Source: a virus. From it: DNA of 21,809 nucleotides. Of the stretch, positions 1 through 5,641 are shown piece after piece. The stretch's first letter is position 1. Every line of letters begins with the position of its first letter. A program made the position numbers and the translations under genes. The stretch spans positions 1 through 21,809 of IMG/VR virus record IMGVR_UViG_3300042991_000074; one strand, written 5' to 3'. The notes under the pieces are model-generated. The model searched no databases. It was not told the DNA's origin and was given only the letters and a program-made list of their open reading frames with translations.

Positions 1-1899
1 TCCCTCTATAACAAAGGGTCTGGACGTCCATTCCGCCAGCCGAATGTCATGCGAGACACAGGCACATGCAAACGGCAGATTGTATATGATTCGCTGTTTG
101 AGATAACCACTGATGAGGAATATATAGCGGCCTGTTCAGCGCCTGGCCCCGTATGGGAGCCTGACGAAACAGGATTGAACCCGGCATTGTTGGGAAAAAT
201 AAACCTCTATCTGGTTGAAGCGACAAAACTGCAAGCATCCGCGCCACCGCAGCTTGAACTGTCAGACGACGACCTTGACCGAATTTCGATTTCCACCCCT
301 CAATGTATCAGCCAGTTAGCTAATTTAAGAGACCCTTCTTATCACGGTGCTACGTTTAACGACGTAGCTATGCAGCTTTGCGCCTACGCTGTCACCGCAA
401 AAAAGACCGAGGCGGAAACTGTAGCCGGATGCAAAGTATTCATCGAAAACTACCCCTCAACATCACTTAATACCGCTCAAAAACGCTACGATAATTTCCG
501 GGCCAGGTTCCGCACCATGATGGCAAACGGGAAGCAGCATTCTTGCGCCGGTATCAAGGCCCTCCGGGTGAGCGGGTTTGATTGCAGTAAATGCGGATTA
601 AGACCGATCTTCTCTGCCCCGGTTGTCGATGTGATAGAACAAATGACAAAAGAAGACCTGAAGGCCACCAATTTAAGCAGCACCTTGCCGGAATGCACAG
701 GGCTAATTCTAAAGGGGATGGAGGCGTTAAGACAACCGGGGATGCCTTGTATTGATGCTTATTCTTTTTCATCTGTAATAACGGCTATTGCAGGTGCAAT
801 GGGCGGTAAAGTCGAGTGCCAAGGTTTGTGGCCTAATATTTACAATATTAAGGTCGGGCCTACATCGAGCGGTAAATCTGCTTCCGATAAATCAATCAGA
901 TCAGCACTGAAAAGAGTTGGGCTTGATAATTTTTATGGCATGACTTCGATATCAAGCGGGCCAGCATTATACCGGGGGCTATCTAAGAATCCCCAAACGA
1001 TCCTTCTCATCGACGAAATTACCGGGTTGTTCAGAAGGTATGGAAAAACGGACATTATAGCAGATGGAAAACGTGAAGCATTGTTAAGCGCGTACAGCGA
1101 AAGCGGTCAAGAGGTTGTAAAGCAATACGGAAATGAAAAAGATACTATACACGTCAATAATCCATGCCTTACTGTGTCCGGCAACGCCACCCCATTGATT
1201 TTTGAGGCTTTTTCACTCGACGATTTTATGTCAGGCATGATTCAGCGTTTCGATTTTTTTGTATATGACGGAGATATTCCTCTGCGAGGCATCCAGGGGG
1301 GCGATTGCGAATCCAAGCTCGACCTTTTTGCAAGGGGGATTGCCGATATTGTCCGTACGGCGAGGCCCCGTGATTGGATGTTGGTTGACGGGGCAGTCAA
1401 TATAAAGTTGACAGATATTGCGGCATCTATGTTACTTGACTTCTCAAACGATAATACAAAACACACGAATACATTCAGCGAATCCGACGGCTGCCGAGGT
1501 ATAATTTCCAGGAGGTATGAACTGGCTATTAAATACGCGCTATTGCATATGGGGAGCGAGAGGCAACCGTCTGATCTATTTGAGCCAATGACTCCCGATG
1601 ACCTTGAATGGGGAATAACAACGGCAAAATTATTGTGTGGGTGGAAAATAGACAAGCTCAGAGACAATATAATATCCGGTGATTTTGACAGGGATTGTGG
1701 AACATTTCTTAAAGCGATTATATCCGCGATTGTTATAGGGAAACGTCCAACTTTTAATATCTTGGCAAACAGGCGTAGAGAGTTGAAAAATTGGAAAAGG
1801 GTCTATTCACAGGATGTAATTGACATGCTCGTAACAAGGGGCGATATCATTATTGATGAGACGAAAAGAACAACCGCTTATTTTTTAGTGAAAAAATAG
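1..1899 (+). CDS. Replicative primase/helicase-like P-loop ATPase (DUF3987-like), 5' end outside window
   Basis: Probably a phage DNA-replication protein that uses ATP to unwind DNA, possibly fused to a primase. The frame is open from base 1 with no stop, so the ATG at 49 is probably internal and the real start lies upstream. Numbered from that ATG, a Walker A motif GPTSSGKS sits at residues 270-277, a Walker B ILLIDE near 318-323, and a sensor-1-like SGNATP near 377-382, all spaced as in DUF3987/SF3-type helicases. Before them, around residues 164-184, is a Cys cluster (C...CSKC) like the small zinc motif seen at the end of some phage primase modules. The first visible residues (RQPNV...TGTCK) resemble the tail of a primase-polymerase domain, but that is inference. 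The C-terminus is basic and may bind DNA. The gene ends in TAG at the edge of a repeat array, fitting a role in origin firing. The ATPase call is firm; the primase half is not visible. Confidence 0.75.
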   Translation, partial: SLYNKGSGRPFRQPNVMRDTGTCKRQIVYDSLFEITTDEEYIAACSAPGPVWEPDETGLNPALLGKINLYLVEATKLQASAPPQLELSDDDLDRISISTPQCISQLANLRDPSYHGATFNDVAMQLCAYAVTAKKTEAETVAGCKVFIENYPSTSLNTAQKRYDNFRARFRTMMANGKQHSCAGIKALRVSGFDCSKCGLRPIFSAPVVDVIEQMTKEDLKATNLSSTLPECTGLILKGMEALRQPGMPCIDAYSFSSVITAIAGAMGGKVECQGLWPNIYNIKVGPTSSGKSASDKSIRSALKRVGLDNFYGMTSISSGPALYRGLSKNPQTILLIDEITGLFRRYGKTDIIADGKREALLSAYSESGQEVVKQYGNEKDTIHVNNPCLTVSGNATPLIFEAFSLDDFMSGMIQRFDFFVYDGDIPLRGIQGGDCESKLDLFARGIADIVRTARPRDWMLVDGAVNIKLTDIAASMLLDFSNDNTKHTNTFSESDGCRGIISRRYELAIKYALLHMGSERQPSDLFEPMTPDDLEWGITTAKLLCGWKIDKLRDNIISGDFDRDCGTFLKAIISAIVIGKRPTFNILANRRRELKNWKRVYSQDVIDMLVTRGDIIIDETKRTTAYFLVKK

Positions 1900-1998
1900 T
1901 ACAAATTAGGGACAAAAAACCTTAAAAATACATTGTACTTTTTCTTAACGCGAAAAGAGACGTTGTACTTTTAAGGTTTTCTTGTACCTAATTTGTAC
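1899..1998. repeat. Imperfect inverted repeat overlapping the replication gene stop codon
   Basis: The 29-nt left arm (1899-1927) begins at the last base of the stop codon and pairs with the 30-nt right arm (1969-1998), with one mismatch and one single-base gap. The arm ends read GTACAAATTAGG and CCTAATTTGTAC. The right arm is part of the 135-bp unit and recurs at 2104-2133. It could form a cruciform or a transcript hairpin. There is no T-run directly after it. Confidence 0.75.
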
Positions 1999-2226
1999 TT
2001 ATGAGAGAGAAAAAAAAGTAATGATTATATATATATATATTATAATAGTACAATAGTACAATAGTATTATATATCTTTTTACAAAAAAAAAGAGACGTTG
2101 TACTTTTAAGGTTTTCTTGTACCTAATTTGTACTTATGAGAGAGAAAAAAAAGTAATGATTATATATATATATATTATAATAGTACAATAGTACAATAGT
2201 ATTATATATCTTTTTACAAAAAAAAA
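1953..2226. repeat. 135-bp tandem direct duplication (two exact copies)
   Basis: Every base from 1953 to 2091 is identical to the base 135 positions downstream, giving just over two copies (1956-2090 and 2091-2225). Each unit carries three TTGTAC and two GTACAA sites, an (AT)n run and an A-tract. Exact identity suggests recent duplication, active maintenance, or an assembly artefact. Confidence 0.95.
2046..2069. repeat. 8-bp tandem repeat TAGTACAA (2 exact copies plus 1 degenerate)
   Basis: TAGTACAA occurs at 2046-2053 and 2054-2061, followed by the degenerate TAGTATTA at 2062-2069. The same array recurs 135 bp later at 2181-2204. It sits directly after the alternating AT run and looks like a small iteron for an initiator or repressor. 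Confidence 0.8.
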
Positions 2227-2282: not shown

Positions 2283-2453
2283 ATGAAGCAAAAGAGAATA
2301 AGAACTAAAAAAAGCTGCGGGAACTGCCTCTACAGAGAATGCGGAATAGCTAATGGCCCGCCGCAGTGCGTCTATTATTTTGCATTTCAGATTTGGTGGA
2401 CTCGAATTTACAACGACAATAACGTGTGCAAGAAGTGGGTGAGTGCGAATTGA
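2283..2453 (+). CDS. Small Cys-rich, possibly zinc-binding phage protein (56 aa)
   Basis: A 56-residue basic protein of unknown function. It has a CGNC knuckle near residues 12-15, then three more cysteines (REC, PQC and NVC) ending in CKKW. This C-x2-C...C...C...C-x-x-W layout is common in tiny phage proteins thought to bind zinc. The ATG at 2283 is preferred over the upstream in-frame GTG at 2247 because AAAGGA lies at 2271-2276, six bases before it, and because the upstream residues fall in the repeat-flanking DNA. It follows the repeat array and is followed by the terminator at 2529-2568, so it is the last gene of the early rightward unit here. Function is not assigned. Confidence 0.7.
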   Translation: MKQKRIRTKKSCGNCLYRECGIANGPPQCVYYFAFQIWWTRIYNDNNVCKKWVSAN

Positions 2454-2579: not shown

Positions 2580-2873
2580 TCAACGCGGATGGAATAAACC
2601 ATGCCTGCCGAGTTTGAGCAGCAACGCCATGAACGCCTGCTGCTGCCGCGTCGGACTCCGGCTGGTCTCGATCCGCGACACATTAGCGGCAGGCATTCCC
2701 ATTATCAAGCCCAGCTCAGATTGGGACAAACCAAGCTGGATTCGGCCCGATTGAAAAATCCTGGAGGGGGACAGATCCGGATCATCCTCGTCGCCTGCCG
2801 GTAAATCCTCGTAGCCCGGCGGAAGCATGGCATCGTATTGCGCCTGGCATTTTTCGTAATTTTTAATCATCAT
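2580..2873 (-). CDS. XRE-family helix-turn-helix transcriptional regulator (97 aa)
   Basis: A small DNA-binding regulator. Residues 1-40 are a polar, acidic leader (PPGYEDLPAGDEDD). Residues 45-86 form an XRE/Cro-CI type HTH with the signature LGLSQSELGLIMGMP followed by NVSRIE, the recognition-helix pattern. The open frame runs upstream to 3092, but that part is leader sequence. GAGGA at 2878-2882 gives 4-nt spacing to the ATG at 2873 and 7-nt spacing to the next ATG at 2870, so either may be used. Its start overlaps the stop of the 26-aa membrane peptide as ATGA, which implies translational coupling. It is last in a leftward three-gene unit and convergent to the early genes. Likely roles are phage repressor/switch or antitoxin-like autoregulator. 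The HTH call is secure; the target is unknown. Confidence 0.85.
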   Translation of the reverse strand: MMIKNYEKCQAQYDAMLPPGYEDLPAGDEDDPDLSPSRIFQSGRIQLGLSQSELGLIMGMPAANVSRIETSRSPTRQQQAFMALLLKLGRHGLFHPR

Positions 2874-2950
2874 AAAATCCTCTCTATGTACCCGACTACC
2901 AGGTACAATGCAAAAATGCAGGCCAGTTTTAGGCCGGTGGAAATTCTCAT
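2870..2950 (-). CDS. 26-aa single-pass membrane peptide
   Basis: A very short gene with good support. GAAGGAG lies 8 bases before the ATG at 2950. The peptide starts MRISTGLKLA, continues as a hydrophobic segment over about residues 7-22 (rich in L, V, I, A, F), and ends YIERIL. Its TGA overlaps the ATG of the HTH gene (ATGA), the classical sign of coupled translation. It is preceded by the same hairpin/A-tract leader as the acidic 173-aa gene. A hydrophobic mini-protein coupled to a regulator could be an inner-membrane toxin or exclusion peptide, or simply a leader whose translation opens the HTH start. Function is inferred only. Confidence 0.6.
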   Translation of the reverse strand: MRISTGLKLACIFALYLVVGYIERIL

Positions 2951-4206: not shown

Positions 4207-5641
4207 GGAAATAGAGTTGCTTAGCCTGGTCGATGCAGAGAATAGGGCCGCTGAGGAAAATAAACTCGCCTCCTATCGGCCATATTCTAAACAAAGAGAA
4301 TTTCACGCCGCCGGGATGCAATACAGGGAGCGGCTTTTCAGGGCGGGAAATCAACTTGGGAAAACCTTGGCCGGTGCTTTTGAGATTGCTATGCACCTGA
4401 CTGGCAGATACCCGGAGTGGTGGTCAGGGAAACGGTTTGCCGCGCCCGTGCGGTTTATGGCCGGGTCGGAATCGGCAGAGCTTACCCGTAAAGGCGTTCA
4501 GCGGTTACTTGTCGGAATCCCGGAAGATCGTAGCGCTTGGGGAACCGGCGCAATCCCAAAAGCCTGTCTGTCAGGGTGGTCGATGCGCTCAGGTGTTGCG
4601 GATGCCTTAGCATCAATCACAGTAGCGCATGTAACCGACGGGATTCCTGATGGAAATTCGACGCTGCAATTTGCATCGTATGACCAGGGGCGGACAAAAT
4701 GGCAGGCGGATACGCTTGATGGTGTGTGGTTTGATGAGGAACCGCCAGAGGATGTTTACCTGGAGGGGATAACGCGGACGAACACAACGGCTGGCCCGGT
4801 GATTCTTACGTCCACGCTTCTAAAGGGGATGACAAAAGTGGTGGCTCGGTTTCTGGGTGAGACGTCACCGGATCGGATCGACATCTGTATGACGATAAAC
4901 GATGCAGAGCATTACACGCAGGCAGAGCGTGATCGCATTATTGATAGCTATCCGAAACATGAGCGAGACGCCCGGACAAAAGGTATCCCGTCGATGGGGT
5001 CGGGCCTGATTTTCCCGGTGGAAGAAGAGATGATAACGGTCGAATCGTTCTCCCTGCCCGCTCACTGGCCCCGGCTGGTTGGCGGCGATTTTGGGTGGGA
5101 TCATCCGTCGGCTTGGGTGTGGCTCGCGTGGGATCGTGAGACTGATACCGTCTATATCTATGATGTCCTGCGGATGAAAGAGACGTTAATACCTGTTCAG
5201 GCTGCGGCAATCAGTGGTCGCGGCAAGTGGATTCCAGTGGCATGGCCGCATGATGGGTATCAGGTCAAGGATGCAATGCACGGGGAGCAACTCGCCGCTC
5301 AATATCGTGCCGCTGGTGCAAATATGCGCCCGGAACACGCCCATTTCGAGGACTCGCAGGTTGTCGGTGAGGTCAGGGCCAGCCGGATATCAACAGAGGC
5401 CGGGATTCAGGAGATGCTGACACGGATGCAGTCCGGACGGTTACGAGTTTTTTCGCATCTCAACGAGTGGTTTGAAGAGAGTCGCATGTATCATCGAAAA
5501 AACGGGTTGATTGTCAAAGAGCGTGACGATCTTATGTCGGCAACAAGGATGGGGATTATGGATTTACGATACGCTATTACTGAGCCACGAGCAAACAGGG
5601 GCATAGCCCATACAGCGAACCGGGATTGGTTTTGCAATTAA
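4187..5641 (+). CDS. terL: Terminase large subunit (packaging ATPase/nuclease)
   Basis: Motor that pumps DNA into the prohead and cuts it. An N-terminal ATPase has a Walker A-like RAGNQLGKT near residues 52-60 and a Walker B GVWFDEEP near 180-187, with the catalytic Glu after Asp. A C-terminal RNase H-like nuclease has GGDFGWDHP near 299-307 and the late acidic site RDDLMSATR near 445-453. The 484-aa length is typical. The start is TTG at 4187, with GGAG seven bases upstream inside the small terminase gene. The gene overlaps its neighbour by 20 bases, consistent with coupled translation. A downstream TTG at 4217 is possible but loses the overlap signal. Confidence 0.95.
   Translation: MSLSKAEEIELLSLVDAENRAAEENKLASYRPYSKQREFHAAGMQYRERLFRAGNQLGKTLAGAFEIAMHLTGRYPEWWSGKRFAAPVRFMAGSESAELTRKGVQRLLVGIPEDRSAWGTGAIPKACLSGWSMRSGVADALASITVAHVTDGIPDGNSTLQFASYDQGRTKWQADTLDGVWFDEEPPEDVYLEGITRTNTTAGPVILTSTLLKGMTKVVARFLGETSPDRIDICMTINDAEHYTQAERDRIIDSYPKHERDARTKGIPSMGSGLIFPVEEEMITVESFSLPAHWPRLVGGDFGWDHPSAWVWLAWDRETDTVYIYDVLRMKETLIPVQAAAISGRGKWIPVAWPHDGYQVKDAMHGEQLAAQYRAAGANMRPEHAHFEDSQVVGEVRASRISTEAGIQEMLTRMQSGRLRVFSHLNEWFEESRMYHRKNGLIVKERDDLMSATRMGIMDLRYAITEPRANRGIAHTANRDWFCN

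Follow-up and report, generated by a model that had tools for sequence, protein, structure and literature searches.

Gene organization of the locus

The window, by which we mean the whole stretch of DNA analyzed, is an IMG/VR virus record of 21,809 bp. It carries, in this order, the 3' part of a DUF3987 gene, a repeat array, a small Cys-rich ORF, a hairpin plus T run, an HTH gene, an ORF of 173 aa (minus strand), and genes for terminase, P22-like portal and major capsid proteins. Because the contig encodes these last three proteins, its source is a tailed phage and not a PICI, a kind of phage satellite that lacks a full complement of structural genes. The features other than the individual repeats are as follows.

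1-1899, plus strand: DUF3987 primase-helicase gene, its 5' part cut by the left contig end; the frame is open from base 1 and stops at TAG 1897-1899
661-1677, plus strand: AAA+ helicase core with predicted MCM-like fold and Walker A motif GPTSSGKS (AlphaFold2 and VIA-align)
1678-1896, plus strand: C-terminal winged-helix domain of the AlphaFold2 model, proposed to bind the iterons
1898-1999: imperfect inverted repeat or stem-loop of 102 nt, made of iterons in opposite orientation (arms 1898-1928 and 1969-1999, 84% complementary)
2004-2047: tract with 89% AT that separates the iteron sets and is a candidate site of melting; second copy at 2139-2182
2283-2453, plus strand: small Cys-rich ORF (56 aa) after the candidate origin, with no family match
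2583-2876, minus strand: HTH gene, HTH_3-like (E 1e-4, just below the curated cut-off)

Assignment of the leftmost gene to the primase-helicases, as originally predicted, is supported by matches to Pfam DUF3987 (PF13148; 4.8e-11, 42.9 bits against a curated cut-off of 27) and to PHROG 3022, "DNA primase" (2e-26). With the gene truncated at the contig end, no primase domain is present on the contig, and what is left is a DUF3987/MCM-like helicase. A search with this protein returned nothing in viral contigs or plasmids and only remote matches in phages. The prediction that DUF3987 represents a family of primase-associated helicases had been made earlier (PMC5862659), and a DUF3987/DUF5906-type primase is required for normal replication of PICMI, which are Vibrio satellites (PMC10803314).

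The final 412 residues of the helicase were modeled with AlphaFold2 from a 36-sequence alignment (mean pLDDT 86, pTM 0.81). The best VIA-align match of the model is the MCM chain 8x7t_D (Z 19.4, rmsd 5.3, 339 residues); it covers model residues 13-410 and thus includes the winged helix, whose elements are helices 341-358, 365-371, 373-376 and 380-392 and strands 396-400 and 405-409. The top of the matches listed in the comparison with PDB structures consists of MCM-type proteins only, and SaPI Rep is not among the matches listed. Profile comparison of the C-terminal domain gave a weak match to the winged-helix chains 2dk5/RPC6 (E 0.01-0.05). The predicted fold is accordingly that of an MCM-like core followed by a C-terminal winged helix.

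Downstream, a longer frame of the Cys-rich ORF, starting at 2247, had no match in Pfam or PHROG searches. Behind this ORF, at 2528-2570, a perfect 16-bp hairpin leads into a T run and is a probable terminator. A perfect palindrome, TGTACC-N9-GGTACA (2887-2907), lies just upstream of the HTH gene start. It could be an operator for the HTH protein; its GGTACAA is common to two of the iterons described below.

A cluster of iterons at the 3' end of the helicase gene

All twelve of the TTGTAC/GTACAA sites originally counted by hand were recovered at the same coordinates: TTGTAC is read on the plus strand at 1933, 1963, 1982, 1993, 2098, 2117 and 2128 and on the minus strand at 1899, 2048, 2056, 2183 and 2191. 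The entire 21.8-kb window contains 20 such hexamers, 12 of them in the cluster, which is the sole array of its sort in the window. The better-defined repeat is the 7-mer AGTACAA, found at ten of the twelve sites and on both strands, as the original prediction of sites in both orientations implied; the remaining two sites read GGTACAA. Ten of the 12 AGTACAA copies in the window belong to the cluster. A degenerate iteron, GGGACAA, is seen at about 1910.

1898-1904, plus strand: iteron AGTACAA, overlapping the stop codon
1933-1939, minus strand: iteron AGTACAA
1963-1969, minus strand: iteron AGTACAA
1982-1988, minus strand: iteron variant GGTACAA
1993-1999, minus strand: iteron AGTACAA
2047-2053, plus strand: iteron AGTACAA
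2055-2061, plus strand: iteron AGTACAA
2098-2104, minus strand: iteron, copy of 1963-1969
2117-2123, minus strand: iteron variant GGTACAA, copy of 1982-1988
2128-2134, minus strand: iteron, copy of 1993-1999
2182-2188, plus strand: iteron, copy of 2047-2053
2190-2196, plus strand: iteron, copy of 2055-2061

Part of this number stems from an exact tandem duplication of 135 bp (1953-2087 and 2088-2222, 100% identical), which doubles five iterons and the AT-rich tract. Since the last five sites (2098-2191) copy those at 1963-2056, the independent sites number seven, not twelve. An exact duplication in a single metagenome assembly could be an assembly artefact; it alters the site count and leaves the conclusion on the origin unchanged. 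The chance level also needed revision: the earlier figure of 0.15 sites per 300 bp was too low, the local AT-rich composition giving 0.39 expected in 386 bp. With the duplicate copy excluded, 7 sites stand in the 251 bp after the stop codon, a number matched by none of 5000 dinucleotide-preserving shuffles (mean 0.28, maximum 4). The excess of sites thus survives correction for both duplication and composition. The description of the sites as phased fared less well. The sites are real, but helical phasing is just partial, since neighboring independent sites are separated by 34, 30, 19, 11, 55 and 8 bp.

The first iteron overlaps the TAG stop codon, placing the array immediately 3' of the helicase gene. 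From there the order is an iteron set (1898-1999), the AT tract (2004-2047) and a pair of iterons facing the other way (2047-2061). This layout is complicated by the duplication, which repeats the right part of the iteron/AT unit a further time. Folded as single-stranded DNA, the 1898-1999 segment reaches -29 kcal/mol (z -8.6). A search of the region against Rfam matched no RNA family, and no near or distant DNA match to it was found among 50,697 phages. GC skew has no minimum or turn at the array on this contig, itself a fragment. DnaA boxes are not above chance, with one TTWTNCACA match (2262-2270) against 1.8 expected in the window.

Arrays behind other DUF3987 genes

DUF3987 genes were gathered regardless of repeats, from viral contigs and a few genomes (first set) and from prophage loci in a 398-genome sample (second set). 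Pattern scans called for a narrower alignment, one with the window in it having diverged too far; the narrower one yielded four genome loci and eighty viral ones. For every gene, the 400 bp downstream of the stop codon were scored for repeats of an exact word. A first round, with more controls, gave significant arrays in 11 of 73 (first set) and 11 of 32 genes (second set), against 4 of 277 control gene ends. The set was then reduced to 41 independent DUF3987 genes with dissimilar C-termini, the window being one of them, and compared with 107 control gene ends from the same loci. A significant array (4 or more copies at p ≤ 0.005) directly 3' of the stop codon was found in 16 of the 41 (15 of 40 without the window) and in none of the 107 controls (Fisher p 9e-11). 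The other 25 genes have no significant exact-word array at the 3' end; among them are many marine Roseobacter-phage types, in which the next gene follows immediately. Strong folding follows the same trend, with z below -4 in the first 130 nt at 10 of 41 DUF3987 ends and 3 of 107 control ends.

The word itself differs in nearly every lineage. One relative (G001, IMGVR_UViG_3300025009_000297) has a portal 65% identical to that of the window and a helicase of only about 15% identity; its DUF3987 stop codon is immediately followed by TTATGRCA iterons pointing both ways, and the contig has no other such array. Moraxella phage Mcat11 has nine copies of GCAGACA, the first 6 bp past the DUF3987 stop codon, and in Pseudomonas phage phiAH14b the stretch right after the DUF3987 gene holds GGGGAACA repeats. 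Words of further loci are:

TTCGACGA: L099, L100, L177
AACTAGTG: L106, L113
CGCCGACA: L166
TGCAATAA: L167
TAACGTCA: L172
GTTAGAAA: L202
ATCCTTCA: L206
ACCCGTCA: L207
AAAACTGT: L216, L218

In most array cases displayed, an AT-rich stretch is flanked by two clusters. The comparison with related phages proposed at the outset thus came out in favor of the prediction: position, iterons both ways round an AT-rich core and a private word are met again in unrelated phages and prophages with DUF3987 genes. The finding named beforehand as evidence against an origin was that of related phages with the gene and no sites. What is found is an array kept in place under a different word, whereas one marine Roseobacter-phage lineage has no array there.

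Three loci with different iteron words (L098, L167 and L172) resemble one another in an element around AATGATTTCAAYGG, which separates the first iterons from the AT tract and lies about 45-75 bp past the DUF3987 stop codon. A scan of viral contigs for GTACAA arrays identified a single contig, prophage-like and lacking a DUF3987 gene, in which seven GTACAA copies are spaced 10-11 bp apart (L038, IMGVR_UViG_3300031760_000342, 4857-4925), for which reason the GTACAA word alone is not diagnostic. At the head of another contig (L034, 1-220), a 12-bp tandem repeat contains the word CACCGCG about 18 times.

On contigs related to the window through their structural genes (L178-L192; portal up to 80% and capsid up to 94% identical), no DUF3987 gene and no array was found. 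This pattern suggests exchange of the replication module, though several of the contigs are fragments. As either would explain why portal and capsid relatives mostly lack the gene and the array, we do not count them as evidence against an origin.

Iteron word and winged helix

Near-identical DUF3987 proteins have a common iteron word. Among 21 array-bearing loci, iteron similarity tracks winged-helix similarity (Mantel p 0.007). When identity of the helicase core is held constant the partial correlation is borderline (p 0.051), so that a correlation beyond general relatedness is no more than suggestive. Divergence is more rapid in the winged helix than in the core, with mean identities of 50% and 65%, respectively, in pairs whose cores are more than 50% identical. 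Six prophage loci (L207, L212, L246, L210, L222 and L220) have iterons with a common CCGTCA core and a variable 5' part, together with winged helices bearing a (T/C)QF(L/M) motif. This pairing of core and motif is a possible natural recognition code.

Alternative explanations for the array

The original prediction also allowed for binding of a phage repressor. The cluster would then be an operator array, bound cooperatively at TTGTAC by the HTH protein (2583-2876, minus strand) to control transcription out of the replication gene. An HTH_3-like protein is indeed encoded nearby, and the option is retained because the TGTACC-N9-GGTACA palindrome lies upstream of its gene and shares GGTACAA with two iterons; about 0.56 such matches, with up to two mismatches, are nevertheless expected by chance in the window. 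The location of the array, behind the primase-helicase stop codon, is not that of an HTH gene promoter, and a search within the array revealed no sigma-70-like promoter. The comparison lends the option no support: in other lineages the array remains behind the DUF3987 gene while the downstream genes differ, and none of the loci compared yielded a relative of the HTH protein. We consider this explanation improbable.

A transcription terminator or mRNA 3'-end structure would account for a strong fold directly behind a stop codon: the 102-nt hairpin would end or stabilize the transcript, its symmetry would give rise to the repeats, and 3' hairpins are commoner at DUF3987 genes than at control ends. 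However, the stem is AT-rich, no intrinsic terminator was called at 1898-1999, and the hairpin with T run at 2528-2570 is a better candidate. Such a role would also leave unexplained both the iterons on the far side of the AT tract and the relatives that have iterons without a strong hairpin (for example L099, L166 and L206). It appears very improbable. That the repeats are functionless AT-rich junk swollen by assembly duplication, as the exactness of the duplication in one metagenome assembly might suggest, is extremely improbable given that seven sites persist without the duplicate and that arrays of other words occupy the same position in unrelated lineages. None of these explanations accounts for an array that stays behind DUF3987 while its word and the downstream genes change.

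A candidate replication origin

In our judgment the cluster is quite likely a replication origin recognized by the C-terminal winged helix of the adjoining helicase. The original proposal of an iteron origin recognized by the adjoining primase-helicase is the best-supported reading, on the grounds of a recurring position, layout and private word in unrelated DUF3987 loci; the comparison across divergent DUF3987 genes is the strongest evidence for it. By analogy with SaPI Rep, SCCmec Cch2 and PICI origins, the winged helix of the MCM-like helicase would bind AGTACAA iterons in both orientations, and the bound protein would load a helicase ring or rings there. The AT tract would melt, possibly aided by extrusion of the hairpin, and the helicase would then initiate copying of the phage genome. 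We infer binding and loading, as well as the direction and the part played by the hairpin. Binding sites at the 3' end of the gene itself would hold initiator and origin together during exchange of phage modules.

We lean slightly toward a broader proposal, in which the DUF3987 primase-helicases of Pseudomonadota phages and prophages form a wide class of self-contained replicons. In these, a fast-diverging winged helix would bind a lineage-specific 3' iteron array, often folded into a hairpin; the satellite-type rep-ori would double as the replication origin of complete tailed phages, and from the protein lineage one could predict the iteron word. The mechanism is ordinary, since the rep-ori layout is known from satellites; its occurrence in tailed phages and its generality across DUF3987 lineages were not found described in the open-licence papers searched.

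An origin layout said to be unique to phage-inducible islands (PMC6092414) would thereby extend to tailed phages, which bears on the sharing of replication modules between satellites and phages. DUF3987 is still a "domain of unknown function" in Pfam; the comparison makes it testable as an origin-binding MCM-like initiator helicase and supplies candidate binding sites for more than 12 DUF3987 lineages. It also offers a simple rule for finding phage origins: search directly behind the DUF3987 gene.

Relation to known origins

In phage lambda and in classical iteron plasmids, the origin iterons adjoin an AT-rich unwinding region; those of lambda sit within the O gene. The iterons of the window likewise adjoin an AT-rich region. 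They differ in that they lie after the gene and that its product is predicted to be a helicase, with DnaA boxes not exceeding chance.

The replication protein of plasmid pRN1 combines an archaeo-eukaryotic primase domain, an SF3 helicase and a winged helix, and a stem-loop of about 100 nt directly 3' of its gene is needed for replication (PMC4234260). The window shares this trait in the stem-loop at 1898-1999. The pRN1 origin, from a crenarchaeal plasmid, is in contrast described as a stem-loop rather than as iterons and starts 54 bp past the stop codon; similar stem-loops are reported in several bacteriophages (BIP-1) (PMC4234260).

At the putative origin of SCCmec, the helicase Cch2 uses its C-terminal domain to bind AAGTG repeats that directly follow the gene encoding it (PMC7581432). 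That helicase is of the D5/Primase_Cterm type, its iterons number three, and it belongs to an integrated island rather than a phage.

In layout the array matches the SaPI/PICI rep-ori. PICI origins consist of two iteron sets round an AT-rich region, immediately 3' of rep (PMC6092414), and SaPI Rep recognizes, with its C-terminal domain, iterons just downstream of the rep gene (PMC7581432, citing Ubeda et al. 2007). The window agrees in having a candidate origin just 3' of the putative initiator-helicase gene, two sets of short iterons round an AT-rich region, a C-terminal DNA-binding domain (here predicted) and an iteron word that varies among elements. The SaPIs and PICIs, however, are satellites, and SaPI helicases are of the DUF927 or D5 type, whereas the window combines a DUF3987 helicase with terminase, P22-like portal and major capsid genes, and its first iteron set additionally forms a 102-nt hairpin.
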